From contig JALNQF010000043.1 of assembly GCA_028456385.1 (NCBI GenBank), forward strand, positions 224,154 to 288,153: 64,000 nucleotides of DNA, written 5' to 3'. Origin of the DNA: Ophiosphaerella korrae. Taxonomy: Eukaryota; Ascomycota; Dothideomycetes; Pleosporales; Phaeosphaeriaceae. Of this stretch, positions 8,897-64,000 are shown piece by piece. Under the pieces are notes generated by a model, which saw nothing but the letters and a program-made list of their open reading frames with translations, had not been told where the DNA came from and did no database searches. Every line of letters begins with the position of its first letter. Position 1 is the first letter of the stretch. Made by a program: the position numbers and the translations under genes.

Positions 8897-10382
8897 GATG
8901 TAATTGTGGGTTGGTGATGAATGTGAGCGCTGTTGAGACGCTGTACTGAAAGATGTTGTATTGCAATGCTGGTCTTGGCGTTGTCCATTTGATAACTGGA
9001 ATATTATAGAGCCAAGCAGCCAGCCTTGCTCTTTTTTGTCTAGGCGGAAACCTTGGCAACCCGGACTTACGACGTCAGCCGTGTCTGACGCAATGATACA
9101 GTAATATAATAGCTTGTGTCAGATACCATCAGAGTTGGCAGACATTATAGTGGGTACTAGGAACTTCAGATACTTCGTGACCTGGTGTTCAAGAGATGCA
9201 TAACTGTCTCGGGTTCCGACTAGTTTCGAGTGCGAAACTGCACCAGTTACGTCATATCTATGAAGACATTTCAAATACCCATTCGTGAGAGAGGTGCATT
9301 GTTCATTTCTACAGTTTGGCCCATGAAATTTCTCGTCACTATATGCGAAAGTTTTCTTATCTATTCTACACAACCTGCCATGGAGCATTGGTGAAGATAG
9401 CTCAATCTAGCAGAAGTCTTTCATGTTAGCAAAATTGTCAAAAAGTGGCTTTTTAGCTAACAATTTAAGGATAGCGTACACATAACATTACCAATAGGGG
9501 AGTCGAGAATGTATCCACGTTGCAGTGCTATTTTTAGTTGATAATAAGCAGCTCCGCTAGTTGGGAGTACGCTAACAACCAGTGGGCTATGAGACTGAAT
9601 GCTAAGGTTAGCCTCAAGCTATCTAGCTACTTTTTGTGTTGCACTTATCAGGCAGAACTCTCATTCCAGACCTGTATCATTTCAATAGGTGGATGCTAGC
9701 GTCAATTGTTTTACTGAAAGGAAAGTACAAGGATGCCAGCACTAGATTTGTATGAGGAGGCTTAGCCAATCAAAAGCCAAAGAAGGTCGGGGTTCACAAA
9801 CCCGAATTACAAACAGGGTGTCATCAAACACCACTCACCGCTTATAGTACCACTTAGTTAGCATGCGAGCTACAAGAGGCCATTTGCTTGCTGTTTTTTT
9901 CACACATCAAGTCTCTTGAGACGAAAATCTTTTCGAAATTGGTAGTATACTTAAGTAGGTTGTCCGAAGAAAGAACAGAGCAAATGCGCACGATGAAGAC
10001 CTGCCTAAGTAGGTTGAAAACCACACTGCTATCGGTAGGTCCCGATCTATTTGATTCTACTCAAACCAAACCCAAATTGTGCTAAATAATGTGAATATTT
10101 AGCCCAAACATGGGTCGATCGCAAGCCTAACCAGAGCTGGCACATACAGGCTGACGCAACGAGACTCTCAATGCCTAAACTTATTACGGTTGATACGGTA
10201 TGGCTGCCAACTGATTGCTGGCTGACCGGACATACCAACTCGGATCCCGAACCCTTAGACACGGATCACACGTTACCGTGGACCAGGTTGTATTGTTATG
10301 CCTCTACATATCACCATCAGTCTATCTAATGGCTCATGCAGTGTTTTTCGTGATCCCTGTTTCCTCGTGGTAGCCAGGCACA
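8897..10382. other. Divergent intergenic region between SDR and ABC transporter
   Basis: About 1.5 kb separating the starts of two divergent cluster genes, so it should contain both promoters. It is AT-rich with many short stops in all frames. I could not identify a transcription-factor palindrome or a transposon remnant with confidence. Confidence 0.5.
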
Positions 10383-13300
10383 ATGCCCTTCACAACTGGT
10401 GAAAACAGCTTTTTGCATTTGGATTCTGAAAAATTTGATTTCAACATTCAGTTCGAGCAATTATTCTTCTCTATCATACCTTCCGCTTTGTTCGTCCTGT
10501 TATCCTTATGGCGTACTCTTGTACAGACACGAAAGCCCACCGTGGTCAACGCCCCAGTTTTTCAGAGAGTAAAAGCAGTACGTAAATGCTTGAAAAGTTA
10601 GAAACTGATACCTGACTATTCAAAAACAATAGGTCGCTATAACAGTCTATGTCGCCCTCGAGTTGACACTTCTCATAATGGCCACAATTGGGTCTATTCG
10701 TGTCACGACCATGTTCATTGCAGCATCGGCCCTCAAGCTTCTCGCAGCTGTTCTTATGATAGTCCTCAGCCTTGTTGATCACAGCAAAAGCGTTCGGCCC
10801 TCTATGTTGCTGAGCATTTACCTGTTTTTTACACTTCTTTTAGACGCTACGCAAGCAAGAACATTATTCTTGTCGTCAAAGGCGAAACCTGAGCACATTT
10901 ACAGCAACTTCTTTGTCACTACCGTAGCTGTAAAGGCTATGCTACTGCTACTGGAATCCAAGCAGAAAGCCTCTTGGATGAACTGGGATCACAAGGAGCA
11001 TAGCCCTGAGGAAACCAGCGGGATTTTCTCCCTGGGCATTTATGCCTGGCTCACCAGACTATTCCGGTTAGGATACAGCAAGATTCTGACAGTTGATGAC
11101 CTCTATCCACTCGATAGCGAAATGACGTCTAACAAACTCCACGATGCCTTCTCTGAGTACATTGACTACTCTAAACTAAGAAAGCATAAATTTGGACTAG
11201 TTAAAGTTCTAACCCGCACACTTCTAGTCCCACTGTTATTACCCATTCTTCCACGTTTAGCCTTGGTTGCTTTTACGTTGAGCCAGGCTCTCATGATTGA
11301 GAAGCTTTTGGAGTTCCTTGCTGAACCTGAACTTGACGATAACAAAGGATATGGCTTCATCGGTGCAGCCTTTTTCATTTATTCAGGCATTGCCGTCTCT
11401 ACGGGAATATACTGGTGAGTGAACCCTTTAGGAGGTAGATCATGTTGAGGGCTTCTTTGATCTTAAGCTCATGAAGCACAACGACAACCACAATATGCTT
11501 CACGTTACTTTCATCATAGCATGAGAAAGGCTGTGTGCAGTCCTGGCAAAACATTACTCTAATTTTGAGCACGAATGAGATTATTACTAACATCTTATGA
11601 CAGGTACTATCAAAATCGATTTCGAACTATGGTTAGATCTATCTTGGTCACCGAAATATTCCTCAAAGCAACAAAAGACCCTATAGGTCTCGGGGATGAT
11701 GCTGCACTGACTCTGATGAGTACCGACATAGAACGCATTAGGGTTGGGACTAGAGCATTGCATGAGACATGGGCAAGTGCACTACAAGCTGGGGTGGCCG
11801 CATGGCTGCTGTATAAGCAACTTGGCGTCGTCTTTGTCGCAGCTCTTGCTCTAGTCATCTTCTGCTTCACAGGGTTAGGGATCCTCATCAACTTCACTGG
11901 AGACTCGCAGAGAGCTTGGATGACTGGAGTTCAAAAGAGAGTTGGCCTGACAGCTACAGTCATTGCCAGTATGAAGAGCTTGAAGATATCGGGGCTCACT
12001 GCGCCCATCAGTAGCTTCGTCCAGAATCTGCGTGTCGAAGAACTTGCAGCTGGTGCCCGATTTCGAAAGATCTTCATCTGTGCAGCACTCTTTTCTTTTG
12101 TTCCTCTACTACTTAGCCCGCCGTTGACATTTGCGTTTGGTCCGCAGCCACTGACTTCCGCAGCCATGTTCACGTCTCTGGCATTGCTTACGCTCTTAAC
12201 CTATCCGCTGCAGCAAACTTTTCAAGCTGTTCCTCAAATGGTTTCCGCATTGGCCTGCATAGGTCGCATTCAGGCATATCTAGAATGTGAAAACCACAAT
12301 GATTTTCGCCGATTCTCCGCAGATCTGAGGCTCAATACAGAAAAGTTTCCTGAAAAGGATTATCACCCCTGGTATCAGTCGTCCCTAGTCATCGAAAACG
12401 GCAGATTTGGTTGGGAGAAGGATCAATTTGTCTTGCGCGATGTCAATGCTCGTTTCATTAAGTCATCGCTCACTATTGTCATTGGGCCTATCGGTTCCGG
12501 GAAATCTACGCTTTGCAAGGCCATCCTCGGCGAAATACCTTATAGTGGTGGCAATGTTATCTCCAGCACCCGGAATGCCCACATTGGTTTCTGTGAGCAG
12601 GCGGCATTTTTGTCGAATGCATCTCTCAGGGAAAACATCGTAGGATTCTCTGACTTCAATCCCGAACGTTATGCCGAGGTCATCGACGTGACAGCTTTAT
12701 CGGTGGACATAGCCGCGCTGCCACTTGGAGATTCAACAAATATTGGATCTGATGGCATTTCTTTATCGGGTGGGCAAAAACAACGAGTTGCACTTGCTCG
12801 AGCGCTTTACCTCCAGTCCGATATGCTAGTACTAGACGATATATTTAGTGGTCTAGATGCTAATACTGAGGAACATATCTTCCAAAAGGTTTTCGGGCCA
12901 GGCGGACTTCTCCGACGAAGGCGAGCTACGGTCATACTCTGCACACACAGTGTGAGGCACCTTCCTGCGGCAGATCACGTACTAGTACTCGAAAACGGTA
13001 CAATTACTGAGCAAGGCGGTTTTGGTGAGCTCATGGCCAATCCCGGTTATGTACGGCGTCTAGGACTGAAAGATTTGTCTGAAAGCGATACTATCGCCGA
13101 GGACGCGACGCTGAAGTCAAGCGATCAAGAGCTAGATCGACAACTTTTTCGGGTTGCAACACTAGAAACGCTAGCTGATGCGCCAGATACGAGTGAGTCA
13201 CGCCGCATGGGTGATAGAGCAGTATACAAGATTTACATAAAGAGTATGGGGTATCATTTTGCAGCTTTGAGTTTGTTCTTCGCGGCTCTCTTTGGCTTCT

Positions 13301-15203
13301 TCGCAAATTTTCCAGTAGTTTGGCTCAGCTACTGGACCAAAGACGTGAATTCAACAGACCCAAAGCATTCTTACAAATACTACGTTGGTATATATGCTCT
13401 ACTCCAGGTAATGGCCGCGATATCGCTCTTGCTCCTAGCCCTCACGCTTTGGATCATTGGTGTGAAGAAGGCTGGTGCAAACCTTCATCAAGAGGCCCTT
13501 AATACCGTCATTCAAGCGCCACTACGTTTCTTCACCCAGACTGATACAGGTGTCGTCACAAATCTGTTCTCTCAGGATCTCAATCTCATTGATACGGAGC
13601 TACCGGAAGCTACTCTGGATACCATGTTTACTGTAAGAGCTTCTCTTCTAGTATGTTAATATGCTAACAATAATAGTTCTTTCAAGTACTTGGACAAATT
13701 GCTGTCATGCTTACATCATCTGCGTACTTGGGTATAGCTTACCCAGTCCTTGGTGTTGTATTGTTCATCATTGCGAAAGTATACCTCCGAACCTCTAGAC
13801 AGTTACGATTGCTAGATCTTGAGACTAAAAGCCCTTTATAGTAAGATCCTCCTTCTCTGGTTATTTTACACTGAACTAAATCGAAGGTTATAGCACGCAT
13901 TTTCTCGACACTGTCAAAGGCATTGCCACTTTGAGAGCTTTTGGTGAGTACTCTAGGCAAAAATAAGCTTGAGGTATATACTAACCGATTTCAAGGATTC
14001 ATGCGCGAAGATATTCAAAAGAATGCGCGACTTATCGATACCAGTCAACGACCGGCTTACCTCCTCCTCATGATCCAAGATTGGCTAAGCTTCGTTCTTG
14101 GCATAGTGGTAATGGTTACCGCAGTAACATTGGTAACACTTTCCGTACGGTTGCACTCACAGACTGCTTTTGCTGGAGCTTCTCTATACAGTCTCATCAC
14201 CCTCGGTGAAGCTCTGGCAGGAATCGTCCTATATTACACCAGGCTAGAGACTTCACTTGGAGCGATTTCGCGACTCAAGACATTCAATGAGAGCGTGGAA
14301 CCAGAAGATAGAGACAATGAGGACATTGTTCCTCCTGAGAAATGGCCTCGGTATGGTGATATAGAGCTAGATGGAGTATCAGCAAGCTATGGGTGAGATT
14401 GACAGCCATCTCATCAAAGATATATCTCTAACACCTCATACAGTGCCGAGGACGACTCCGATATTTCTACCGCTAGATTAGCGCTGCGCAACGTGAAAAT
14501 CAAGATAAAATCTGGAGAGAAGGTGGCCGTCTGTGGGCGTACAGGTAGCGGAAAGTCTAGTTTCATCCTTCTATTGCTAAAACTTCTCGATCCTCGTCCG
14601 GAAACAGCAACAAATATCTTCATCGATGGGACGCCACTTCATCGAATCACCCGACTCTCACTACGCCAGCGCATCATTGCAGTGCCCCAAGAAGCTGTTT
14701 TCTTGCCTGAAGGTTCCACCTTCCAGATGAATCTTGACCCGGATAGCGTATCCACAGGTCATGAGTGCCAACTGGTCTTAACAGCTGTTGGGCTGTGGGA
14801 CTTTGTCCAGCAACGCGGAGGCCTAAACGCTGGAATGAGCGCAATCACTCTCAGTAATGGCCAAAGGCAACTTATGTCAATTGGGCGTGCTCTGCTCCGT
14901 CATCGCATCAGGGCACGAATACCGGAGGGCTCTATGGACGGTGGTATTCTACTCCTGGACGAAGTAACTTCTAGTGTAGACAACGACACTGAACGCGTGA
15001 TCCAGGAGATAATTAGAAACGAATTCAGTACATATACAGTAATATCGGTGAGTCACCGGTTAGATATGATCATGGATTTTGATAGGGTTGTTGTCATGGA
15101 CAAAGGAGAGGTTGTGGAGGTAGGGAAACCAGATGTTCTAGCTAGAGCAGCAGGAACGAAATTTGGTGAGTTGGTCAACGCTGGATCTAGAGAAAATACG
15201 TGA
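10383..15203 (+). CDS. ABC-C (MRP-type) full-size multidrug transporter
   Basis: ATP-driven efflux pump, probably at the plasma or vacuolar membrane, that likely exports the cluster product. Seven exons: 10383-10577, 10633-11414, 11604-13632, 13677-13840, 13894-13943, 13996-14392 and 14444-15203, giving 1458 residues. Layout is TMD0-TMD1-NBD1-TMD2-NBD2. NBD1 has Walker A GPIGSGKST, signature LSGGQKQR and Walker B MLVLDD. NBD2 has Walker A GRTGSGKSS, signature LSNGQRQ, Walker B ILLLDE and a switch His (VSHRLD). NBD1 carries Asp after its Walker B Asp (LDD), not the catalytic Glu; NBD2 has LDE. This is the usual ABC-C asymmetry with one degenerate ATP site. It lies between the SDR and the NRPS-like gene, which supports cluster membership. 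Confidence 0.93.
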
Positions 15204-15867
15204 TCAGGTGCATGTTCGGACTGATTTCTTGAGCATGACGATCTCAAGTTGAAACGGTTGTTTGGAGTTGATGGTGTCTACTTTGGAATAACATAGGTCT
15301 CAGTAAATTAAATCAAGTTATGAATAAAAAGTATGAATCATAGCTTGTCTGATAATTTGATACGATCATTGCGACGGTTACTAGGACTCTCATATTATTG
15401 ATTACGATATCTAAATGAGCCCACGATGAACTACGATAACCCAACCATATAGAAGCCCTGCTTCTGGTTAACACCGCGCGTCATAGATGAACTGATAAAG
15501 GTCGAAAATAGAGCGAATCTATTAAGATGACTCATTTTAGCTACTTCGATAGGAACTTTTTACTTAGCTAATCATTGCCACTTACCGTCAATCGTTAATA
15601 TTCACCATATGTGACGCCTGATTACTGATGATAAACTATCACCCATCGGGCTTCTTTACTTACAAATTAAATCTATTTATCCTTTCTTGCTGGGAGATCT
15701 ACGCTGTAAGTTGAAGATGTGAATCCCAGCACGGTCACCACACGTTTAGTCGGTTACGTGATTCGTGTTCACCCTTAACTAGTAATCTTCCATTTTCACG
15801 GAACTTCTACATACATTCAAATTCATTTAACACAATCCGCGGCTATATTACCAAAAAGAAAAAAAAA
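15204..15867. other. Intergenic, convergent tails of ABC and NRPS-like genes
   Basis: AT-rich, no long open frame. The A-rich stretch just before 15870 may be part of the NRPS-like 3' end. Nothing else recognised. Confidence 0.55.
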
Positions 15868-18800
15868 TTACAATAAAGCACCACGTGCTTGTAACATCGC
15901 CACAGGATACCTCAATAGATCGGCCACCAAAGTGTCGCTCCTGGCATTGACAAGAGCATCAAGCATCTGCCCTGGGATTCCCGCTACTTCCTTTGCCCAT
16001 TCTTCATCAATCCGTCCTACCTGAAAATCGAATATAGATTCCACGCCATCCTTGTTATTTGGAGCAAGAGTCCAGCCCATCAAATCGTTATGTTTCTGCT
16101 TCTCGATATGCTCCCAGCTTGGAGTAGGATGGCTCGGTATATCAAGGAGACAAACAATACTTGTCAAATTCGTGCGCTTGTCTTCTGTAAGATTTGGTGG
16201 TAGTTGACGTCCCAAACCGTCGAATTCGAGAACATTGAGAGTGGTGGCGTGGACTTGTGCTAGCCAGTCATGGACTGTAATATGTGTTGGAACTGCAACA
16301 CTGAAGGGTGCGCTGTCTACAAGACCGCCAATGAGCATTGGCGCATCCGGCCATGGAACAGTGCGGCCAGAAAGACTTAAACAGAATCCCACTTGCTCCC
16401 ACTTGGATATGCTGCTCAAGAACAGCGCCCATGCAGCGTACATCATTGTGCTATTCGTAAGGTGGAGGTCGCGTGCTGCATCATCGAGCGCAGATTTGCG
16501 AATAGATACAGGAGAATCTATGAGGCCCACGTCATGGGCTCGTGGCATCCGCGGGCTTGGAGGCTGGAGTATCGCTGTCGTGGGCAGTGGCTCCACCATT
16601 TTTTCGAACATGGTGATCGCTCTGTCAAAGTTCTCCTTCTTGTGTTTTTGCATGAATCGTGCGAAGTCTTCGATTCGGGGGCCTTGCTGTATTTCCTCTC
16701 CTGCTAGCGCGCGTTCCACATCTTGGGAGAGGAGGACTTGCGAAATAACGTCTAATAGAACGTGGTGAACGCGTGTGATTATTGCCAATGCTTTACGGTC
16801 TGGGACTGAAACACAAGTGATGTGGAAGAATGGTACCTCGATCTCAGCTGCTCCAATTGTGTTGATATCTTCCCAGGCCTGCTCTTCAGCAGCAACGCAT
16901 GCTTGATCAAAGTCTTGCTCTGAGACACTTAAACTGTGCCAATTCAGGTTTAGCCGACCAAGATCAGATATCGTGAAGGTTTTCAGGTCGAAACGTGTTT
17001 GGAATATGCTATGCGCTGATGTAGCTTTGATGAATGCATGATGAAGCTCGCTAGGCGTTGGCATAGTGTCGCAATCTCCAATATACTTGGATATGTTGAT
17101 CAATGCGCAAGGGAGAGGCGTTTTCATGGACCGAGTGAGATATAAGCCTTGCACACCAGTTACTGGGACTTCTTTGGAGTCTCCATCTGTCTTAGTCCCA
17201 ATATTTCCTGAGTGTTTCAAGACTGCTTCCAGTTGTCCTATTGTGTCTGCTCGGAGAATCTGTACTGGAGATATTACGTATCCGTGATTCTTCAGCAGAC
17301 TAGTAAGCCTGATAGCCGCAAAGGAGGTTCCTCCTAGCCTAATGAAGGATGAATCCTCGTCCAAGTCGCTAATTTTGATGTGAAGGCACTTCGAAAAGGC
17401 CATCCGTATCACATCGAACGGCGCAGTATATTCATCTTGTGTGAGGTCTTTGCTACCATCACGAGCTAGCTCTTCCTCTCGTTGTTCTCTAAGAGCATTC
17501 CTATCCACTTTGCCGTTGATGGAGAGAGGAAACTTGTCAACCGCTAAAAGATCATCGGGGATAATGAAAGGATCAAAACGGCCCTTTAGATGCGCCCGTA
17601 GCTGCTCGATGTCAACAGTTGCTGGATGCACGTACCCAACGAGCCTGTCATGACATTTTAAAGCAACAGCTAATTGTACTTCAGGAAACGTCAGCAATGC
17701 GGGCTCAACCTCAGTCTCCAGGTTAATGAGAAATCCGCGGTTCTTGATCATGGAATCGGCTCTGCCAGCCCAAGTGAGCTCTCCTTTCTCTGTTCTGCGC
17801 GCAAGATCGCCGGTCCTGTAAAATCGCTGTCCATGCCATTGTATGAACTTCCGTGCCGTTAGCTCGGAATTGTTGATATATCCGGCAGCTAGGCCAGGAC
17901 CGGTGATCAAGACTTCACCGTGGTCACACTCTTGCAAGGCATCGTCAACCAGAACAACTCTGACACCCGGGTTTAGCTTTCCAAATGTGATTTGCTCCAC
18001 ATCTGGGTCAATTTCGCCAAGGCTGATGATGCAAGTTGTTTCCGATGGACCATACGTGTTGAAAACTTTCCGGTTTGGTGTAACCCATCGGCGAACAACT
18101 TCCAGACTCGGATCCTCAGCGCCCAAGAGAATATAACGAACTCGCTCATATGGGCCAGAGGAATCTAGTACTGCCAACATTGAAGGCGTAAGCATCAACA
18201 CGTCACATTCGGCCGCAACATAAGGGAAGCTTGACGGTAATGCCATGCACAATGTGTGGCCCTTTGTCAGCGTTCCCCAAATGACAGAAGCACAACCATC
18301 AAAGCCAACAGAAAAGGCCAGTAAACAACGGAATCCCTCTCCGTCGGAGCTAGGCCGATCACCATCGCCTATTATATCCACGTGCGAATATGCATGAACG
18401 GCTTTGTGATATACCATCACGCCTTTCGGCTTGCCAGTTGTTCCAGAGGTGAAGAGACACCAAGCTAGATCATCTTGCTGCATCGCATCGCGAATGCCTC
18501 GCAAACGAGCTTCTAAATTGTCTGAGTTCTTGACCTGCGAATGCATCCACTCATTCTGAAAGTTGACCGTAATCGCAGGTAGTTTAAGACCAGGGCATGG
18601 ACAGGTGACTAGGGCCACAAATGAGGAAACACTGTCCAACGCAGCCTCCACTCTGGATCCACTCCAAGCTGCGACATCCATAGGACAATAACATGCGCCG
18701 ACTCGCAGAATTCCTATGATTGCCGGTAACATTTCGAGTGACATTTGTGTCAAGAGAGGTACTTTGGTCCTAGGTTTGACGCCAGCCAGGAGGAGCGCAT

Positions 18801-19128
18801 GGCTGACATGCAACGAAGCATTTCGTAAACTGGAATAGGTAAAACTGTGTCCTTCAAACTCGGCAGCAATTCTGTCTGGTGTTTTGGCGGCTTGTTCATC
18901 GAACCGATCTACTACAGTTGCCTCGAGATCTCCATGGAGTAGAGTATTAGTTCCTGCTTGGAACTTTGAAGGTTGGGGGGATATTGGCGTGTGGCGGGGT
19001 TCTATAGGATCCGTCCTAGAATCGTATATGGTTGAATTTGAAGTCAACTGTCGTAACATAGATTGGGTAAGGTAAGGCCTTAGAAGGGTCTCCATAATGC
19101 TCAATATCTGAGTGTCGTTGAGAAACAA
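15868..19128 (-). CDS. NRPS-like enzyme, adenylation-thiolation-condensation (A-T-C)
   Basis: Intronless, 1086 residues. The adenylation domain (about 70-560) has A3 LFTSGTTGKPKG (225-236), A5 NTYGPSETT (357-365), A7 YRTGDLA, A8 GRADSMIKNRGF and the A10 lysine Lys540 (INGKVDRN). It retains Asp in the FDG motif of the A4-A5 segment, compatible with an alpha-amino acid substrate. The carrier protein has LGGTS with Ser602. The C-terminal condensation domain has HHVLLDV at 788-794, with the catalytic second His and the Asp kept but Val in place of the usual Gly. There is no TE or reductase domain. The order is unusual because the condensation domain follows the carrier, so it may either release the aminoacyl group onto a soluble nucleophile or accept the acyl chain from the PKS ACP in trans. 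The paired PKS without a release domain makes the second idea attractive; that is inference. Confidence 0.92.
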   Translation of the reverse strand: MFLNDTQILSIMETLLRPYLTQSMLRQLTSNSTIYDSRTDPIEPRHTPISPQPSKFQAGTNTLLHGDLEATVVDRFDEQAAKTPDRIAAEFEGHSFTYSSLRNASLHVSHALLLAGVKPRTKVPLLTQMSLEMLPAIIGILRVGACYCPMDVAAWSGSRVEAALDSVSSFVALVTCPCPGLKLPAITVNFQNEWMHSQVKNSDNLEARLRGIRDAMQQDDLAWCLFTSGTTGKPKGVMVYHKAVHAYSHVDIIGDGDRPSSDGEGFRCLLAFSVGFDGCASVIWGTLTKGHTLCMALPSSFPYVAAECDVLMLTPSMLAVLDSSGPYERVRYILLGAEDPSLEVVRRWVTPNRKVFNTYGPSETTCIISLGEIDPDVEQITFGKLNPGVRVVLVDDALQECDHGEVLITGPGLAAGYINNSELTARKFIQWHGQRFYRTGDLARRTEKGELTWAGRADSMIKNRGFLINLETEVEPALLTFPEVQLAVALKCHDRLVGYVHPATVDIEQLRAHLKGRFDPFIIPDDLLAVDKFPLSINGKVDRNALREQREEELARDGSKDLTQDEYTAPFDVIRMAFSKCLHIKISDLDEDSSFIRLGGTSFAAIRLTSLLKNHGYVISPVQILRADTIGQLEAVLKHSGNIGTKTDGDSKEVPVTGVQGLYLTRSMKTPLPCALINISKYIGDCDTMPTPSELHHAFIKATSAHSIFQTRFDLKTFTISDLGRLNLNWHSLSVSEQDFDQACVAAEEQAWEDINTIGAAEIEVPFFHITCVSVPDRKALAIITRVHHVLLDVISQVLLSQDVERALAGEEIQQGPRIEDFARFMQKHKKENFDRAITMFEKMVEPLPTTAILQPPSPRMPRAHDVGLIDSPVSIRKSALDDAARDLHLTNSTMMYAAWALFLSSISKWEQVGFCLSLSGRTVPWPDAPMLIGGLVDSAPFSVAVPTHITVHDWLAQVHATTLNVLEFDGLGRQLPPNLTEDKRTNLTSIVCLLDIPSHPTPSWEHIEKQKHNDLMGWTLAPNNKDGVESIFDFQVGRIDEEWAKEVAGIPGQMLDALVNARSDTLVADLLRYPVAMLQARGALL

Positions 19129-20822
19129 GTTAAGTGTTGTTTGCCAAGAGTGCTAACTTGATGTCTTTTGGCTTGTGATCCCCTTATTGTACTTTCATTT
19201 TAAAGTAGCCATGTAATTGATCGGACACCTTGGATTCCGAAAAACGGCTACTTTCGATAGTGGTGCTGGCTGCAAACCGTATCGGAAATGCTGACATGGA
19301 ATGTTCACGATGTGTCACTAGATCCATGTCAGCCACGCGGTGCTGGCTGACATCTGACCCAGAAACCCAGGCAACACAATACAATTTTGGTCTATAAATA
19401 AGCTTACCTATACGCCTCAGAGCAGGCATAGTATTGTAATTCTATTTCAATGTGCCGGATCATTGTGAGAGTTTTGGAAAAGCCCCGAGGTCTGTCTCGG
19501 AATTAGTCAAGTCGGATTAGCTACCAGGCATGACGAGGCCCATTCAGGCTTGCCGCAATGACTGGAAAAATACGGGTTGTTTCACTGTGGAAAATATTAT
19601 CTGCGTTGTGTTATGAATAATGTGGCGACATCTGGGAGGAAAGGATGCCATGTTGACAGGGAGGGGTTTAGCTTATCGTGCCTGCTAGCTCTTTTGTTCT
19701 GCCACACCGTGTACGCCACTTATGGAATCAAGTTCATCCTGTACTACCATGTAACGAAATCTTTGCTCAATTTACAGCAGTGTGAATACACAGTGCTAGC
19801 GTTGAGTGGTACGCGAATGGTGAACGGACTGGCCTTGCTCTCAACCAGTTGCACTTACTCAGGCATCCTATTAGATGTATCTAACTTTACCTCAATAACT
19901 TTTAGTTTTCGTCAACGAAAATTGTGCGGAAGAGAAAATGCCTGTTCGAAGAATTTACCTTGGGAGGACCTGGGATGAGAAGAGTTCTAAACCCCTAACA
20001 TTCAGATATAGCAACGTCCACATGAATGCAACATCTAACTTAGGTTATTCTATGGGCAGTGTGAGAACATTTACTACCATACACCCAACCATATATTGCA
20101 ATTGACTCAAGGGGTCAAACTAGACAAATGCTACTTCGCTTAACAAATATATATATTTGACGGCTACGACTATACATGACACGTATGATAAATAAATAGG
20201 GAAAATAAAATTAATAGGCACGTATATAAGAATATTTCACATAGCTAGTAAAACTAGGCAAGTATTATTTGAACATCTAAAATTCAAAAATCAAATCGAT
20301 TCCCATTGGCATTACCTCGACGAGTGCCTCTGGCTTATCCACTAATTTACATCGCTCAATTCGAAAACACAGAATACTTCGATATAGTATAGCGTATTTG
20401 GCCTCGTGCAGCTTGAGTAAAACATAACTCTCACCCTCACATAGCTTGAAGACTAATAGATCCAGCCTTCTCTAAAGCATTGAATGATGCCAAATTTGAT
20501 ATTTTATGGTTGGTGAAATAGTAATATAGTAGTTAACAGAGGACATTGCACATAGAGTCATTTTTGACTAGCGTAAGAATAAATGTAGGATTTGTGTGAA
20601 GAGGGTGACTAACTGTTTGGATTTGAGTCACGACTTGAAGATCTAGTGACTGTGCAAACAATATTCATAGTGTAGCCACTTCACCACCATGACCACTCAG
20701 TCGCAAACGGTATTGTTTTACAAGTTCACGCGCATGAAATTGTACCACTATGGTATTAATTCCCCTGCAAGAATGCATGTTGCTTTCTTCACCCACTGGC
20801 ATCCCAAAGTTAACTCACTGCC
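19129..20822. other. Intergenic, right border of the metabolite cluster
   Basis: About 1.7 kb. The left part must contain the promoter of the NRPS-like gene; a TATA-like TATTTATA on the minus strand lies near 19393-19400, about 265 nt upstream of its start. A 133-codon open frame at 19577-19978 has no recognisable motif. The 20100-20650 part is AT-rich and shows nothing coding. Confidence 0.5.
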
Positions 20823-55100: not shown

Positions 55101-55895
55101 CTATAAATCGTGGTTACTGAAAACAAACCCCGCACCTCTGCAAGACTCATCCGCAAGCCCATCGCGCAGACTCTGTATCTCTCTTCTTCTTGCATCTTCT
55201 CTAGCACCCTCCTGAAAGCGTTCAAAATCAATGATTTTAAACCCCGCCCCGCCAACCAGAAAATTATAGCGATTTACATCACCATGCAAAAAGCCCAGCC
55301 TATGAAACTCTTTCAACACTTGCTCACACGCGCTCAGATCCTCAGTCGATGCACCCCTTCTGTTTTCCAGTTTCTCGACCATAAAGCCCATCACGCGGCC
55401 TCCCTCGTGAATATGTCCGAGGAAGCGTGGGGCGACGCGTGACTCGTGCTGCTCCAGCAATTGATACGCCCGTGTCTCCCGCTCAATTCGCGGAATCTCC
55501 CGCTCGAATCGTGCTATTTTTGCGATGACATTCTTTCCCGGTAGGTCCGTATTCAGAGGGTTCGATTTCGTTGCTGTAGCCTCAAAAGTTGAAGCTGTCA
55601 ACAACTCGGTTCTTTCTAAATCGAGAATATCAACACGCATGCTGTGCCAAACGTTCTGAACACCTGCGAGCTTTTGTTGTGATAGCGATGTCTTCAATTT
55701 ACCAGATTCCGCGTCGCGAGAGATATACGCGACGGTCCAATTGTCGTCTTGGTATGGCAATGGCGGAAATTCCGCAAGCGGGAAGGAAATCATATCTCTG
55801 CTGAAGGTTGCAGCTGCAACCTTGACGCACTTGACTTTGGTGCCGATCCTGAGCCGGTATTCACTCTCGTCTTCGTTGTCGTCGTCGATTTCCAT
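55101..55895 (-). CDS. Protein-kinase-like / APH-fold protein
   Basis: 264 residues from the only in-frame ATG (MEIDDDNEDESEYRL). A compact kinase-like fold: a glycine-less N-lobe with VIAKIARFEREIPRIERETRAY supplying Lys and Glu, then VMGFMVEKLENRRG as hinge, HGDVNRYNFLV as catalytic loop (Asp and Asn present) and KIIDFERF as the metal-binding Asp. HGDVNxxN and IDFE are typical of the APH/choline-kinase branch, not of Ser/Thr kinases. Its substrate is unknown. The frame continues open 71 codons upstream without ATG, so a 5' exon may be missing from this call. Confidence 0.7.
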   Translation of the reverse strand: MEIDDDNEDESEYRLRIGTKVKCVKVAAATFSRDMISFPLAEFPPLPYQDDNWTVAYISRDAESGKLKTSLSQQKLAGVQNVWHSMRVDILDLERTELLTASTFEATATKSNPLNTDLPGKNVIAKIARFEREIPRIERETRAYQLLEQHESRVAPRFLGHIHEGGRVMGFMVEKLENRRGASTEDLSACEQVLKEFHRLGFLHGDVNRYNFLVGGAGFKIIDFERFQEGAREDARRREIQSLRDGLADESCRGAGFVFSNHDL

Positions 55896-56332
55896 GGAGA
55901 TAATCGAATGACCAGTAATTCTTGAGGGGTTGACATTGTATGATGGTCTTGTGAAGACAGGAGTTGATAGCGCTCTCGGATTGTAGCGGTCGAGGTGCAA
56001 ATGTGCAAGTTGGGATCCAGGATGTGATTGAGAGGAGGGTTGCAATGCCACAGCCTTTGATGAGTTTCTATGGCCTCTGCGCAAGCGACCTACTATTGCT
56101 GGTCCCACTTGTACCCCCCTTGTAGCAGAGTTACCGAACAGGAGGCCCAGGGCGACCTAAATATGGCTTTGTAAGCGCGCCGCACCGAACAGGCCCTTAG
56201 GCATCTTGAGGATGAGGCATGAATTTGGCACATTTAGTTACTAGTAAAACTGCACATAAAACAGTGTTACAGATTCTATAGCCTTCTACGCACAAACCTG
56301 CCCCTACCGAACGCGCTAGTTGCCCGTGCCTG
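55896..56332. other. Intergenic
   Basis: Open in the frame of the upstream-extended kinase-like gene to about 56108 but without ATG. Otherwise nothing recognised; any further remnant of the decayed GIY-YIG gene would be expected here but I cannot see it. Confidence 0.45.
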
Positions 56333-56636
56333 TTACCCCATCATTTTGATCAAATAAGATTTCAGGTCTAGACAAAACGACTTGTTGAATGGCTTCGCAA
56401 ATGATAACACGAGCATTTTTGAGATGCTGCTTTCCTGTGGTTTGAAGATGCTAATGCATTCGAGTTGCTGCATTGAGTGACTTCCCTACATAGATATCCC
56501 GCAGTCTGCCATTGCTGGGCTGGCCGTCATCTAGAACATAGACAGCAGGCCAGTTCGAATGCTTCTCGTCGAGGGCTTTCCATGTAACAACTGCATCCTT
56601 GGAGAAGTCCAGCTCTTCAATTCTATAGTTGATCAT
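56333..56636 (-). pseudogene. Decayed GIY-YIG N-terminal domain of a bacterial-type DUF2075 helicase gene
   Basis: Starts with ATG at 56636, inside the end of the MazG gene (14-nt overlap), and reads 61 residues: MINYRIEELDFSKDAVVTW, then NWPAVYVLDDG and RDIYVGKSLNAATRMH. This is the GIY-YIG-like opening of bacterial DUF2075 (Schlafen-type helicase) proteins. A TAG at 56451-56453 interrupts it where Gln or a similar residue is expected. Past it the same frame continues HLQTTGKQHLKNARVIICEA, then a one-base shift is needed for FNKSFCLDLKSYLIKMMG, ending at 56333. The helicase part is missing. A CAG-to-TAG change would fit RIP-like mutation. Confidence 0.72.
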
Positions 56637-56943
56637 ACTTTGTGCTACTTCCACGCGCTTTGTCGACAGGATACTTCGCGCGCGTAACTTCGAGCTTCTC
56701 CAGCACAATTTTGTCGGGATCGAGACCGACGCGGTCAGCGAGGAGAAGACAATAGGTCAGGACGTCTGCAAGTTCTTCTTTCACCCGCTTGGGATCCGCA
56801 TCAGCGCCCCACTGATAGCACTCGAGCAATTCTCCGGCTTCGATGGTAATGCTTTTGGCAAGATTTTCTGGAGTTTGGAATTGTGCCCAATCACGCTCGG
56901 CACCAAATGCTTTGAGGGTGTCGATGACAGTTTTGTCAACCAT
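56623..56943 (-). CDS. MazG-like nucleotide pyrophosphohydrolase
   Basis: 106 residues, no intron. Hydrolyses nucleoside triphosphates (often dCTP or modified dNTPs) to monophosphate and pyrophosphate. All-alpha MazG signature: ERDWAQFQTPENLAKSI, then EAGELLE (ExxE) and KEELADVL (ExxD) for Mg binding, and the C-terminal AKYPVDKARGSSTKYDQL. Length and C-terminus are those of the bacterial single-domain MazG proteins, not of longer eukaryotic dCTPases. Its stop overlaps the start of the decayed GIY-YIG frame by 14 nt (ATGATCAACTATAG), an arrangement typical of bacterial translational coupling and strange in a fungus. Horizontal transfer is therefore likely, by inference. Confidence 0.85.
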   Translation of the reverse strand: MVDKTVIDTLKAFGAERDWAQFQTPENLAKSITIEAGELLECYQWGADADPKRVKEELADVLTYCLLLADRVGLDPDKIVLEKLEVTRAKYPVDKARGSSTKYDQL

Positions 56944-57582
56944 AGGGTCCAGCAGCGGGAGATGTTGATGGGGACAAGAACTTTTGGCCTGATTAGACAA
57001 CAGCAGGCGATGAGATTTATGCGTGAAGGAATGATTACCGTAGAGCCCAGATTATGTACGAGAGCGAAGGAGCCTGCTCATAGCAAGAGATGGAAGCCTA
57101 GAGAAAGGTGCTCCAAGCCACATTAGGAAGCGCGCCAATCAAATCCCGAGAAAAGATGCGCGACCGTCCAAAAGGGCTTCCAGCGTGTTGCGGGGCAAAA
57201 ATTTCCCCCGAGTTCCTCTTTTCTTGGTTTGGCTTTTTTTCAGCCTTGTCTGTCATAATACCTCTTGATTGCACGGCTTGCCGTATTGATACCTGGATCA
57301 CAACATTGCCGGAAACTGTGACGCTGTTTAAATTGCGTCTCTTCTATTGTCCAACAATGCGAATAGAATAGTTTATCAACAAAAATATTCCTCTTTAAAG
57401 AAAAAAAACACCACCGCGGGAATATGCAGTTATTACTTCCGTGTCGATCAGGATATAGGTAGAATCATTAGAATCTTTGGATTTTAGCTGTTCTCAATGC
57501 CAGATCAATCAGAACATGCACCTAGTTCGACCATCCAGTCCCGTTTTCCGTATACTACACAGATCTACAACGCATGACGAAA
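56944..57582. other. Intergenic between MazG-like and kinase-YTH genes
   Basis: Contains the presumed promoter of the MazG-like gene, all minus strand. Part near 57390-57420 is A-rich. No other gene seen. Confidence 0.5.
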
Positions 57583-59663
57583 CTAAACAAGGTCATATCG
57601 TGTCGGCTGCTGTCTGATTATTTCAGAGTAAACTCTTAAGATCTCATAGCCAGATTCGGGGGCAAGCTCAAACCCGTCCATGGACGCCACAGCCTTGCGC
57701 CGAGCCCCCAGACGAGCGGGGACATGTTGAATATGATCGAAATGTAATTCATTCACAGTCAGCCATTCAATCTCAAACCGCCTGTTCGAATTTAGTGAAA
57801 GTGAACGATAAAACAGCGTCCTTCAGTTACTCACCCTTCATACTCTTCTCCGTCCTCTCTGGGCAACCAGTCATCATCTGTGTTCTCCCAGTCCACTGCA
57901 CTCGTCATCCGAGCGACGCCACAGAATCTCCTGCTATTGTGGCATATTAGTGCGGGCCGATGGCGATGATGGAGGTCCGTACCTTTTAACTATCGAGAAA
58001 AATATGATAACATTGCCCCCGGATCTCTTATAACCATTATTAATCTTCACGTTGGCTTTTTGCCTGCCAATCCATCGATTCTCGGCGAGGCATATCTCCA
58101 TATCTGGTACGTTATCTGATCGCATCACGAAGTACTTGCTCTAAGTTGCGAAGCTGAGCGTTAGAAAGTTTTTGTTCGAATTGTGGGTGAAGAGAGAGAG
58201 ACTGACATTGTCCAGGGAAAGATTTTGAAAACTTCGCACTAGAATCCTAGAGTTGAAAGCTCGACCGTGATATGTCCCAAGCATCGAAGCATCGCTACCT
58301 TGAGTACTAAGATTAGTCTGTATAGTTTGCGTGCTGTGGCTGCTTCCTGGACTTCTTATACTATGAGATATTACAGAACTGCGCGTGACAAGTTCGTTTG
58401 TTAATGGGGAATCCATAATGTGTAGATTTCCGAGGAGTGGAGGCGACCAAGGAGCAAATGCGCTTGGAGAAATGACAGCATTGTGATGACGCTGGGACAA
58501 AATGGCTCTATTCTGAGTAGATCTTCGAGGAATAGGTTAGTCTCAACACAGTCTACTGAACGAAGGCCAACAACTCACGAGGCTTCTTCTTCGAGTACTT
58601 CTGTTGCTGTGGCAAACCAAGAATGTGATATCGCATCCTTTACTGTTGGTCGGTTTTGCGCATTAGGGGCCAGCAAACCGGTAATGAGGTCTTGACACAC
58701 GGTTGAAACGGTTACGCCTGGGACCTCATCAAAGCTGAGAGGCCGGCGGCCCTCCACATAGTCTCTCTGGTCAGCGCCATACAAGAATGGATGATCCAAT
58801 ATAAGCTCCATAGTAATGACGCCGATAGCCCATATATCAACTGAAAGGGAGTATGTATCTGCGCCACTATCTCTTGAAGCCTCTCGAAGCTCTGGTGCCT
58901 GATATGCTGGAGTACCAGTTTGTGTTTGTAGCTGTGTAGCTTCATATAATTGCTTACTCACGCCAAAGTCTGCAAGCTTTACTCTCCACGGGTTTATAGA
59001 GGCTACTAGGATATTCTGCACAGATATGAGCAAATAGACCCGAGGCATAATGTCCTCCTTACCGCTGGCTTCAGGTCTCGATGGGCAAAGTTGATATCAT
59101 GCATATGGCCAATACCTTCGAGGACCTGTCGCATGATAACACTCGTTGAAATTTCGGTAAAGCGGCCATGATCTCGTCTGAATCGTGCCAAATCTCCAAG
59201 ACGAAGATACTCCATTGTAATGAATATCGATTCCGGATCCTCGAACCAGCCAAAGCTTTGAACAAAGTAGGATTTGTACTCCACAGTCGGTAAGCTGCCC
59301 GCTGAATATAAAACTTTACACCCAACTTACAGGATCCTGGGAAAAAGTTGCAATGGCTCGAAGCTCCTGGATGTAGTTCGGAGTGGCTAATTTTCTGACC
59401 TGTTTCACTGCTCGAACTTGGTTATGAGATGCCTGTCGCGGATCGGACACTTGGGGTCGACGTCGTTCGAACCATACATGGCCGAAAGAGCCCGGACCTA
59501 TGAAAGAATAGTCTTCCTTGTCCCATATTTCATCAATGTTTTCGATATGAGGCTCGCCGTCTGGTATCGGGTGGGTTTGAATTTGTCTTCGATGCTTGTG
59601 AGCCCCACTAAGGAATTCTGTGTCTAGTCTCATTGCTGAGACCAAATTCATAGATTGCTCCAT
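57583..59663 (-). CDS. Ser/Thr protein kinase fused to a C-terminal YTH (m6A-reader-like) domain
   Basis: Seven exons read from the right: 59331-59663, 59063-59278, 58579-59015, 58207-58522, 57983-58140, 57835-57933 and 57583-57781. Canonical splices give exactly 585 residues. Kinase: GPGSFG loop (56-61), Lys87 (RAVK), Glu100, HRD (177-179), DFG (199-201), APE (223-225), ending near 323; it should be active. A Ser/Thr-rich linker covers 330-434. Residues 435-575 match YTH: SKYFVMRSDN, NRW with Trp457, FFSIV, FCGVARMTSAVDW, Trp509, EGRFEIEWLTVNEL, then MDGFEL...GYEIL. By alignment from memory with human YTHDF, Trp457, Trp509 and Tyr518 fall at the methyl-adenine cage positions. YTH domains bind N6-methyladenosine RNA. 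I know of no described kinase-YTH protein; the fusion rests on four splices joining kinase, linker and YTH. Confidence 0.85.
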
Positions 59664-60095: not shown

Positions 60096-61738
60096 ATGGC
60101 CGTTGAATTAGCTCTCGCCATTCTTGGTGCGGTGGATGTGTGCATGAGGTGAGTGCAGTGTAGTCGCATCTAACATCTTTGACCGACATGCTAATACGAT
60201 GCAGAGGCGCCAAAAAGATCAGGAAAACCTGCAAAAACTTCAGTGGTTGTGATGAAGAAATTGAAAAAGCGACCATCCTCGTCGAGTCGGTCCTAATTCG
60301 AATCGAGGTACAGATGCGATTTCTGAGGAAAATTGCCGAGCTGCTCGAAGCCGAATTGGCACAGAGCCAACTCAACTTGCTGCATGTGCTCAAGGGTAGA
60401 TTAGAGCAAACCATTTCTGAGCTCGAAGTGCCGAATTCTGGAACGCTCAAAGACTATCTCCGCCGCTGGAAGTGGGCAATCAAAGATAAGCTGCATGGCT
60501 TAGCCAACGAACTCGAGGCATGGCAGAACAGATTCGACCCAACATGGTATTTGATTATCCTGAATAGCAACCAGCTTTTAGACAGCGAGATCAAGCAGCT
60601 ACGCAACAAGCTAACGACTGCTTCGGAATCGCAATGCATCCTACTAGACAATCAGATAAAGCCGGTTACAAACCTGTGGGGTCTGCGTGTCGCCTCCAAA
60701 TCGGAACATGAGAAGAAGCTCCCAGTCTACCTCGACTCATCTAGCATCAAAGATCCGCAAGGGACGCCTATCTTCTTTTCCGTAGCTAGGATCGTCCTCC
60801 GTCAGAACTCAATGGGCAGCATCAAGCGTTCAATTGTAGAAGGCATAACCAGGCCCGATGGAAGCTACGGGCCGCTTGTTGCTCACCTAATTAAAACAGA
60901 TGTTGAACTACTCGCAAGAAAGCTCCAGCAAGTTGACCCCGAAACCTTTCACCTTCTGAAATGTCAGGGTGTCATAGAGCGCCCGGGTTTCGAAGCCCCG
61001 CTAGAGCTTGCATATTCCATGCCCGAAACTGACGTACTGCCTACTAGCCTTCGCGGCATTCTCCTAGACAAGAGTTTCGTTGCGAGCCTCAGCTCGATTG
61101 TCAAGCTTGCAAAACAGCTGGTCCGCTCCGTGAGCTTCGTCCACGCTTGTGGCTTTGTGCACAAGAGCATCCGACCAGAAAACATTCTGCTGTTTCCGAG
61201 CGAGCAATCATTGCTTGGGACAAGCTACTTGATTGGCTTCAGCCAATTCAGGCATAATGAACAGCAAAGCGAAATGCTCGGGGATATCTGCTGGCACCGC
61301 AATCTCTACCGCCATCCCGAACGCCAGGGAGTAATGGTGCATCGACGCTACATAATGCAGCATGATATATATAGCCTTGGTGTATGCCTCTTGGAAATTG
61401 GTCTATGGCAGTCATTCGTTCAGTATCCTGGACTTAATCCGAACTCAGTCCCCATTCTACCCCCGTCCTCTGAGCTTCACATATCTAACCAAGACTTCCA
61501 ACTCCCGCACCTGGCGGCGAAGCTCTGCACAAAGGGACAGCTAGCCGATATGGCGCGGAGATATCTTCCCTCAAAAATGGGCGACATATATACCGAGGTA
61601 GTTGTTACGTGTCTGGAATGCCTTGATAAGGAGAAGGGAAAGTTTTCAGATGGAACCCAGGATGATAAGAATGGCGTTATCATTGGTACTAGATTCATAC
61701 AGCACATAATCTCGCGGATTGACGGTATTTCGCTCTAA
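60096..61738 (+). CDS. HeLo-like N-terminal domain plus pseudokinase
   Basis: Exons 60096-60148 and 60205-61738 give 528 residues. The N-terminus MAVELALAILGAVDVCMR followed by a long helical segment (about 18-190) is the HeLo-like membrane-active fold of fungal cell-death proteins. The C-terminal 300 residues are kinase-like: VKLAKQLVRSVSFVHACGF, then VHKSIRPENILLF where HRD is replaced by His337-Lys-Ser339, and LIGFSQF where DFG is lost, then HDIYSLGVCLLEIGLW. Catalytic Asp residues are therefore missing, so it should be a pseudokinase. Such HeLo-kinase proteins are widespread in Pezizomycotina and thought to act in self/non-self cell death; not a toxin by any evidence here. Divergent from the kinase-YTH gene. 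Confidence 0.82.
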
Positions 61739-62400
61739 GATTACATTCTTATTTCGTGATCATAGTCTCGCGACATCGGGATGGATATTACAAGAGAGAC
61801 GCACTGCATACAGTAAAATGATTTTAATCAAAGCTGCTCTTCGGATGCTATTGCTGAGCATGGATCATATTCATTATCCTAGCCAAGAGGATCGGCCATT
61901 TTTTTGAAAGCAACGTATAGATTTTGAAACTTGTGTAAAAAACCTCCATACCTAGCAAAGTTCCTGCATGAACGCCGCCGAACATGGATCATATTCCTTA
62001 CTATAATACAATCAAAAACAGGCAAAAGAAGTAAGAATTCCAGAAATAGAGACTATAATTATCAGGTTAAGCGAGTATTTGGTATTCTCAACAAACCCCT
62101 GTCTGGCGCAGTCATACAGTCAATAGTTGTTAGCTATTCACTTACTTTTCAGCCACTGCTTCACGAGAAAGTACTAGGCAATTTGAACTTATTTTTCTTC
62201 CATACATCCACTCTACGGTGCAAAACCCATTTCAAATAATTAATTCCTCCAAGACTTATGCTCTGATACTTATTTAGCTAAATATTAAGTAACGTATTCC
62301 ACCACTAAGCCGGCCACACCACTAAGCTAGCTACTTTTTTCTTGGCATCGCGAACACTACCTCTACAATACTATGTCTTAACAACAACAAAATATTATTT
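61739..62400. other. Transition into AT-rich DNA
   Basis: No recognised gene. The open frame at 61931-62239 (102 codons) shows no motif. Composition becomes steadily more AT-rich rightward. Confidence 0.5.
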
Positions 62401-64000
62401 CTAAACAAGAAGGTAGGCTTAAGCTTACTATCTAAGCCTTAGCTTCTAGCTAGTTTTAAAGCTAACAACGCGCTACTAAAGCTTTTAATATCTATTATTA
62501 CGTTATAGCTATAATAGAGAAAACTATATAGAACTAATTAGTCCTAGCTTAAGTACTAACAAAGTATAAGATAAGCAGGGTAACAACCTAGATTAGGAAA
62601 TAACTTATAACTATTAAGACCTTAGAACTAGGTAAGAGTAACGAGGGCAAGTAGGCTTCTATAAGACGAGCGAGGTTAATAAACAAGATAGTTACTTAAC
62701 TTAATTAATAGTTAGCTCTTATTAGAGTATTACGAGGTATATAAGTATTAATAGGTAGATAAGAATCTAATTAAAGTATTAGTCGTAATACTCTATTAGG
62801 ATAAGAAGTAAAGAAGAGATTAAATATAATAGTCTATAAAGGTTTATTAACATTCTTATATACTTACTATCTAGTATTTATTTCTAAGCGCTTACTCTAG
62901 AGCGTTTACTCTAAAGTGCTTATTTTAGAGCGTTTACTCTAAAGCGTTTACTCTAGAGTATTTACTACTAAATAGTTATATATTCTACTACGCTATATTA
63001 CCTAGCCTAATTGCGTATAATATAATAGCTTACCTACTACTTAGTATTGTAATACTATTCTCCTTTCTTACGCTAGGTCTATCTTTAGGCCTAGGCCTCT
63101 ATTAGCTAGGTCTAGCTTATAAGTAGTTTACTCTACCTTCTAGTTAAAAACTATTTTACTATAATATTACCTCTTCTCTTACTATCTAGTCTACTATTAA
63201 CTTATTAGATAAGTTTATTATAACTAAGAGTACTTTATAAGCTTTATATAGTTAGGTTTATTATAAAACTTTTTTTTACTAATATATCTATTATATTCTA
63301 GCTATAGCTTTATATATCTTATATATCCTAGTATATTATACTTACTTCTTACTTTTTTAAGTATCTACTAATAATTCTATAGGTTAGCTTTAGGTTTCTA
63401 TATATTTTTACTTACTAGGTAACCTTTTTATTTTACTAGCTACTCTTAGAGATACTATATACTTTAGAAGGTATTACTTCCTATTTTTTAATATCTTTAT
63501 AAGTCTTTAACTTTAAACTTATTATCTTCCTCTTTTTAATATTAGAATTGCTACTATACTAGTATTTTTAGCTTAGCTAGTTCTAGTAGGCTTATATAGA
63601 ACTTAGGGTATACTTTAGTATTTTTAGGTAGTTCTAGTATTTTTATTACTATCTTATTATTTTCTTTAACTAAAAAAAGTCTAACTTTAATATAGTCTAG
63701 TCTTTTACTAAGTTACTTTGTCTATAGATTCTTTATATAAAGATATACTTTGTTTTTTTTTTTTAGCTAAGGTACTATTTTTTATTTTTAATTAATATAT
63801 AAAATACTTTATTTTTAAGATTTTTTTAGTTTTTATTTTATCTTATTATAGAGTTCTTATATATCTTCTACTCTAACTAATACTACTTTTATTTTAGGTC
63901 TTAGTAGTATTCTCTTAAATAAGTTAAGGTATATCTTATAGTTTATAAAATATAGTATTTTACTTATTACTTTTAAGTACTTATTATTATATACTAATTA
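62401..64000. other. RIP-saturated AT-rich block
   Basis: About 1.6 kb with no usable open frame on either strand. CpA and TpG are almost absent: I count only about a dozen in total by eye, while TpA is everywhere. That is the expected result of repeat-induced point mutation (C to T at CpA) acting on both strands, probably on a transposon or other repeat whose identity is no longer readable. It runs off the right edge. Confidence 0.85.
62888..62971. repeat. 14-nt tandem repeat, six copies
   Basis: Six consecutive units of the form GCGYTTACTCTARA, the third and last diverged by T/A changes. Unlike the surrounding sequence the units keep CG and GC dinucleotides. Confidence 0.85.

Follow-up and report, generated by a model that had tools for sequence, protein, structure and literature searches.

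Structure of the kinase-YTH gene and its surroundings

A gene for a 584-residue protein, in which a protein kinase domain is followed by a YTH domain, was predicted on the minus strand (59663-57583) of the window, that is, the whole 64,000-nucleotide stretch of DNA that was analysed. The rebuilt spliced frame on this strand consists of seven exons (59663-59331, 59278-59063, 59015-58579, 58522-58207, 58140-57983, 57930-57835, and 57781-57583) and has 585 codons including the stop. All six introns are of the GT-AG type with lengths of 47-66 bases, and the reading frame is preserved through them. A preliminary description of this DNA had proposed a kinase, a Ser/Thr-rich linker, and a YTH domain in one continuous 585-codon frame. 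Its coordinates, strand, and architecture proved correct when the gene was rebuilt, the frame was reproduced with the stop counted among its codons, and the linker is present between the two domains of the spliced protein. The gene and its introns are as follows.

57583..59663, minus strand, kinase-YTH gene, seven exons, 584 residues (spliced frame; Pfam), with the same architecture as the database proteins P0001-P0006
59279..59330, minus strand, intron 1, GTAAGT...AG, 52 bases
59016..59062, minus strand, intron 2, GTAAGG...CAG, 47 bases
58523..58578, minus strand, intron 3, GTGAGT...AAG, 56 bases
58141..58206, minus strand, intron 4, GTCAGT...TAG, 66 bases, separating the linker exon from the YTH exons
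57931..57982, minus strand, intron 5, GTACGG...CAG, 52 bases
57782..57834, minus strand, intron 6, GTGAGT...CAG, 53 bases

The inferred splice junctions agree with the residue order across the joins in the proteins of other fungi. P0001 was 72% identical to the gene product overall and had no extra residues at the joins except for a difference in linker length. Other acceptor sites were rejected: for intron 5, an acceptor shifted by a single base disrupted the frame at residue 494, and use of the AG lying one base upstream left the whole frame open; the nearer AGs for intron 1 were out of frame, and the AG before TACAAATCC was in frame and fitted the kinase alignment. The profile search of the genome detected no second copy of the kinase-YTH gene. 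A retrotransposed or degraded copy was discarded in view of the introns, the absence of this second copy, and the ordinary RIP-type indices of the gene (TA/AT, 0.71; (CA+TG)/(AC+GT), 1.29). Retention of intron 3 would lead to an immediate stop (...EEEAS-stop, ORF 59096-58575) and a kinase-only product. Because the frame then ends directly after the kinase, whether the YTH part is made or not is a splicing decision.

The window extends to the end of its contig (C368), and the kinase-YTH gene lies approximately 4.3 kb from that end, adjoining an AT-rich compartment. The two kilobases of the last 2 kb (62001-64000) have GC contents of 0.32 and 0.22 and strong RIP-type indices, with TA/AT values of 1.86 and 1.94 and (CA+TG)/(AC+GT) values of 0.50 and 0.05. 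A neighbouring gene on the plus strand (60164-61738) encodes a protein whose long N-terminus looks helical and matches no Pfam family and whose C-terminus weakly resembles a kinase (34.5 bits); it is likely a pseudokinase gene because the HRD motif reads HKS. On the minus strand, a gene for a MazG-like nucleotide pyrophosphohydrolase (56626-57051, 71 bits) adjoins the kinase-YTH gene, and a weak match to APH/Kdo-type kinases (24.7 bits) was seen at 55104-56156. A set of genes resembling those of secondary metabolism occupies 5815-19152; it comprises the end of a reducing polyketide synthase with its ketoreductase and carrier protein, a short-chain dehydrogenase, an ABC transporter, and part of an A-PCP-C synthetase.

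Kinase and YTH domains of the predicted protein

The domains of the protein and the codons of their key residues are listed below. The rows mentioned are those of an eight-row alignment composed of the window protein and P0001-P0007.

58614..59504, minus strand, protein kinase domain, residues 54-317, introns 1 and 2 inside (PF00069, 159.3 bits; nearest among solved structures, RAD53 and CAMK kinases)
59403..59405, minus strand, codon of Lys87, the VAIK-type lysine, same in 8/8 rows
59075..59083, minus strand, codons of HRD 177-179, catalytic loop, same in 8/8 rows
58962..58970, minus strand, codons of DFG 199-201, same in 8/8 rows
58207..58613, minus strand, Ser/Thr-rich linker, residues 318-434, intron 3 inside, the least conserved part
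57631..58140, minus strand, YTH domain, residues 435-569, introns 5 and 6 inside (PF04146; YTHDF2 at 1e-11 among solved chains)
58072..58074, minus strand, codon of Trp457, cage residue 1, aligned to YTHDF2 W432; Trp in 8/8 rows, the P0007 row being doubtful here
57867..57869, minus strand, codon of Trp508, cage residue 2, aligned to YTHDF2 W486; Trp in 8/8 rows
57840..57842, minus strand, codon of Tyr517, cage residue 3, aligned to YTHDF2 W491; Tyr in 5/8 rows and Trp in 3/8

In the spliced protein, the Pfam Pkinase match (E 1.6e-46) extended over positions 6-263 of the 263-position profile. All 22 key positions checked, including the glycine loop, K87, E100, HRD, K181, N184, DFG, APE, D243, and R305, were invariant in the eight rows, and the numbering given earlier for Lys87, HRD, and DFG, which are canonical catalytic residues, was accurate. 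The kinase is thus predicted to be active. Its best match among solved chains was RAD53 (100.3 bits), and CAMK kinases were also near. A RAD53/CHK2 orthologue was rejected because the Pfam scan of the whole protein (E 0.001) showed no FHA domain.

The linker showed 57% identity between the window protein and P0001, compared with 74% for the kinase and 83% for the YTH domain, and the linkers of the Sordariales rows were 7-20% identical to those of the remaining rows. The Sordariales linkers of P0004 and P0005 contain an acidic run of Ser, Asp, and Glu and differ markedly from the linkers of the window protein and P0001, which are rich in Ser, Thr, and Arg. It is plausible that the Ser/Thr-rich linker serves as an autophosphorylation site. 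A structure predicted for P0001 from six rows had a mean pLDDT of 62.5 and a pTM of 0.47; it was weak in the activation segment and in the linker, where residues 315-426 formed a low-confidence stretch. The YTH part was mostly good, with blocks of 80-92 (441-520) and 78-92 (491-540) and values down to 52 near 551-560. Since the pTM was 0.47, the relative placement of the two domains is unreadable from this model. Searches by Foldseek and VIA-align with the P0001 model returned kinases in the listed rows; therefore, the identity of the YTH domain rests on sequence.

YTH domains usually read N6-methyladenosine (m6A) marks on RNA. The preliminary description had placed a YTH-like domain at residues 435-575 and left its identity to a profile search, which gave a significant match of 90.7 bits to PF04146 (cut-off, 22.1; E 8.8e-26) over positions 1-133 of the 135-position profile. 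This match is far beyond chance, because the unspliced genome also exceeded the cut-off in 57631-58140 (59.9 bits). A profile of the YTH halves scored 87.3 bits against YTHDF1, 73.4 against CPSF30, 69.5 against MRB1, 66.0 against YTHDC1, 60.2 against YTHDC2, and at most 35.7 against Mmi1. Judged by this profile, the YTH half is nearest the YTHDF/PHO92 readers. Identities in other pairs were 78% for YTH and 64% for the kinase between P0004 and P0006, and 72% and 79%, respectively, between P0002 and P0003; conservation is therefore not always highest in the YTH domain, although across these pairs this domain is constrained at least as much as the kinase.

Two cage tryptophans are strictly conserved in the YTH family, namely W377 and W428 of YTHDC1 (PMC6356822), and both are present as W457 and W508. 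The aromatic cage and Trp457 of the preliminary description stood, whereas its Trp509 and Tyr518 were off by one and correspond to Trp508 and Tyr517. The third cage position of published readers is occupied by Leu, Tyr, or Trp (PMC6356822), and the N1 contact of canonical readers is Asn, Asp, or His. The window protein has Tyr517 at the former, where the three Sordariales rows have Trp, and Asp447 at the latter; this position is aligned to YTHDF2 D422 and was Asp in all seven rows having a letter. Going by their conserved residues, the kinase and the YTH domain both appear functional.

Other positions depart from those of the readers. Met553 aligns to their RNA-contacting Arg (YTHDF2 R527, YTHDF1 R506, and YTHDC1 R475), and across the rows this position was Met in five and Tyr in three, the latter from Sordariales. 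Replacement of this Arg by Ala in YTHDF2 changed the Kd from 2.5 to 63 micromolar, an approximately 25-fold loss, and its replacement by Phe in YTHDC1 caused a nine-fold loss (2.0 to 18) (PMC8016981). Asp443, present in 7/7 rows, occupies the N3-contact position, which is Tyr or Asn in readers (YTHDF2 Y418 and YTHDC1 N363). Canonical readers have an RNA-binding surface of positive charge. The net charge of the YTH stretch, calculated from sequence, was -3 in the window protein and -4 to +1 in six full-length homologues, in comparison with +6 in YTHDF2, +5 in CPSF30, and +2 in YTHDC2. A negative surface is one of the reasons given for the failure of Mmi1 to read m6A (PMC6356822). The objection from charge is weakened because the canonical YTH1 of the same genome is also acidic overall, with a net charge of -6 over the 205 residues of its YTH stretch including an insert. 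Tight binding of m6A is nevertheless disfavoured by the change of Arg to Met or Tyr, by that of Tyr or Asn to Asp, and by the mostly non-basic domain. Because the Arg contact is missing, the protein was classed as a YTH-domain protein and not as an established m6A reader. Given these differences, its binding may be weaker, may favour another sequence context, or may depend on other parts of the protein.

Homologues, origin, and m6A setting

A query with the YTH region of the gene product yielded 89 candidates, of which two reached E 0.001 or better; with the YTH part of P0002, six of 92 candidates did so. Both kinase and YTH were over the cut-off in all six database proteins scanned (P0001-P0006), five of which (P0002-P0006) span three fungal classes.

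P0001, 594 residues, on a 2,548-base contig, kinase and YTH
P0002, Pseudogymnoascus, Leotiomycetes, kinase and YTH
P0003, Lophium mytilinum, Dothideomycetes, kinase and YTH
P0004, Cercophora samala, Sordariales, kinase and YTH
P0005, Podospora bellae-mahoneyi, Sordariales, cluster of 13 sequences, kinase and YTH
P0006, Madurella mycetomatis, Sordariales, kinase and YTH
P0007, Venturia inaequalis, Dothideomycetes, found via the kinase part, second half of YTH alone (20.7 bits, under the cut-off)

The kinase-YTH architecture is not a local artefact, since the six database proteins share it. A search for it in other Dothideomycetes had been proposed in the preliminary description, and it recurs in other Pezizomycotina and is not private to this genome. 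The YTH domain of the window protein was 63% identical to that of Pseudogymnoascus (P0002) and 62% to that of Lophium (P0003). If the contig of P0001 were derived from RNA, it would constitute direct evidence of the spliced fusion. In P0007, the kinase is intact and the first half of YTH is missing; a faulty gene model and a real loss are both possible. Members of the family are labelled in databases as 'kinase-like' or 'hypothetical' proteins. The earlier statement that no kinase-YTH protein had been described is in line with the open-licence literature, in which no description was found (bioRxiv and most subscription journals lie outside it). The accompanying statement that YTH proteins carry disordered partners was too strong, considering that YTHDC2 is a helicase, that plant CPSF30 has a YTH domain, and that the other YTH gene of this genome has an RRM. 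The kinase-YTH protein is a real and conserved architecture, apparently undescribed.

In a tree of 42 kinases, the kinase domains of all eight proteins grouped as a single clade (99/99). A tree of 12 YTH rows likewise placed the YTH domains of seven of the proteins in one clade (99/98), nearest YTHDF1/2. This latter clade holds relative to the five outside rows, namely YTHDF1, YTHDF2, CPSF30, YTHDC2, and the YTH1 of the same genome, because fungal PHO92 and Mmi1 were left out of the tree, which also carried a long-branch warning. In both trees, the window protein paired with P0001, and the three Sordariales proteins stood apart from the others; the splits within the YTH clade had moderate support (84/89 and 87/90). 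The two halves group alike, which is most simply explained by one old fusion that has since been passed on whole. P0002, from Leotiomycetes, was nearer to the Dothideomycetes proteins of Lophium and Venturia than to the Sordariales proteins, in conflict with the class tree. The identities noted above between the Pseudogymnoascus and Lophium proteins (kinase, 79%; YTH, 72%) were found despite their different classes. The cross-class identity and the patchy distribution could reflect horizontal transfer of the kinase-YTH gene, or the conflict with the class tree could reflect hidden paralogy.

Among the 120 kinase-query matches listed of 1,255, a YTH domain was precomputed in three, and the fungal ones included seven with TPR, one with ankyrin, and one with WD40. 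The TPR, ankyrin, and WD40 kinases and the kinase-YTH clade formed one 33-row group (SH-aLRT 99). Nine kinase relatives were scanned, of which two had TPR, one had ankyrin, and six had no C-terminal family; L009, the nearest relative within this group from the same genome, was also without a known C-terminal domain. This suggests that the C-terminus of these kinases is a slot for exchangeable recognition modules. Because related fungal kinases carry TPR, ankyrin, and WD40 at the C-terminal position, YTH is regarded as the recognition part and the kinase as the output.

The genome contains two YTH genes: the kinase-YTH gene and a canonical YTH1 gene with a YTH1-type RRM (RRM_YTH1, 129 bits; YTH, 112.9 and 40 bits over two exons). 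Its single MT-A70 gene (L004, G000:C479), located where the GC content is 0.59, encodes a DPPW motif and scored best against METTL4 chains from plants (82.7 bits, compared with 25 for the next family). In a survey of fungi, nearly all Pezizomycotina had MTA1, of the METTL4 type, as their only MT-A70 protein, METTL3/14 having been lost; YTH1 was general, and a further PHO92-like gene occurred in 98 of 498 species (PMC10826363). The two YTH genes and one METTL4-type writer found here fit this survey. In Cryphonectria, loss of CpMTA1 lowered m6A (PMC11361730). Any m6A mark on the RNA of this organism would probably be written by the METTL4-type MTA1 of the genome.

Possible roles and comparison with known systems

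Readers of m6A are thought to work via the recruitment of other machines. On balance, we consider it likely that the YTH domain at the C-terminus of the kinase, which is predicted to hold m6A RNA, directs or gates the kinase there. The YTH cage would take N6-methyladenosine in RNA, and this binding would bring the kinase to proteins on marked transcripts; alternatively, it would relieve an inhibition of the kinase. If this is true, the enzyme is itself the reader, and an RNA mark leads directly to a signalling cascade in one protein. By analogy with PKR, which is turned on by double-stranded RNA, it is conceivable, although we advance it only tentatively, that a kinase family with exchangeable sensors took up a YTH domain and that m6A RNA turns phosphorylation on. 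Such an RNA-switched kinase would be a direct enzymatic link from the epitranscriptome to protein phosphorylation and would perhaps serve to distinguish own transcripts from foreign ones, or meiotic transcripts from vegetative ones. These considerations bear on the open question of how m6A is used in filamentous fungi with a METTL4-type writer that have lost METTL3/14 (PMC10826363).

Alternatively, the protein could be a reader that its own kinase controls. YTH may be an m6A reader of the PHO92 type that acts in mRNA stability or translation, with the kinase mainly phosphorylating the linker, YTH, or partners and so switching RNA binding on or off. The Ser/Thr-rich linker adjoining the YTH domain and the closeness of that domain to YTHDF chains by profile (87.3 bits) are consistent with this, and a kinase acting in trans on a YTH protein has been reported for Aurora A and YTHDC1 (PMC8971511). 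Nevertheless, the linker sequences of the Sordariales proteins have little in common with those of the other rows, and the numerous kinase relatives without YTH imply that the kinase came with its own line, so that we regard such a reader as somewhat unlikely. Another possibility is that YTH no longer reads m6A and functions as a module for localisation or protein contact, binding unmodified RNA as Mmi1 does or holding some other methylated ligand in its cage. The change of Arg to Met or Tyr, that of Tyr or Asn to Asp, and the loss of net positive charge would be expected in this case, but both tryptophans, the third aromatic residue, and the N1-contact Asp have been kept in the aligned homologues, whereas Mmi1 has lost the third aromatic residue and the N1 contact (PMC6356822) and scored lowest on the family profile (35.7 bits). 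Loss of m6A reading is thus judged unlikely.

A merging of two adjacent genes or transcripts into one gene model appears highly improbable. The kinase-only protein that a retained intron 3 would yield and the Venturia protein (P0007) without the first half of YTH could be taken in its favour; against it, the domain order is identical in six database proteins, five of them from named fungi, the frame is kept through six canonical introns, and both halves group alike in the trees. P0001 is, furthermore, 81% identical over the whole YTH part as well as 72% overall, its joins being free of extra residues save for the linker length.

Among known kinases, RAD53/CHK2 and the CAMK kinases were the best solved-structure matches of both the kinase half and the P0001 model; RAD53/CHK2 carries an FHA domain, whereas the window protein has a C-terminal YTH domain instead. 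Fungal kinases such as P0020, P0021, P0034, and P0042 belong to the same kinase group and likewise have an N-terminal kinase and a C-terminal recognition module. The module differs in the TPR, ankyrin, and WD40 kinases, and the kinase domains of those listed were at most 40% identical to that of P0001. PKR (EIF2AK2) combines an RNA-binding module and a kinase in one chain, with dsRNA-binding domains and an eIF2alpha kinase. The likeness to PKR is an analogy of working only, as the window protein has neither dsRNA-binding domains, according to Pfam, nor an eIF2alpha-type kinase.

The YTHDF/PHO92 (Mrb1) readers have the nearest YTH domain by profile (YTHDF1/2 in the YTH tree) and a three-residue aromatic cage, in which Tyr at the third position, as in the window protein, is an accepted variant (PMC6356822). 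Their architecture consists of a disordered, low-complexity N-terminal region and YTH with no enzymatic domain, whereas the window protein contains a kinase and has Met or, in Sordariales homologues, Tyr in place of Arg and Asp at the N3 contact. The 'PHO92' clade of Kim and others 2023 (PMC10826363) comprises second YTH genes besides YTH1, as found in the genome of the window. Some kinase-YTH proteins may be included in the tree of that survey, since they would pass its 300-1000-residue filter; the word 'kinase' occurs zero times in its main text. Mmi1 of S. pombe is likewise a fungal YTH protein; it has no positive surface (PMC6356822), and the YTH stretch of the window protein has, by sequence, a net charge of -3. 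Mmi1 differs in that its cage contains His and its N1-contact residue is Ala (PMC6356822), where the kinase-YTH proteins have Tyr or Trp and Asp, respectively.
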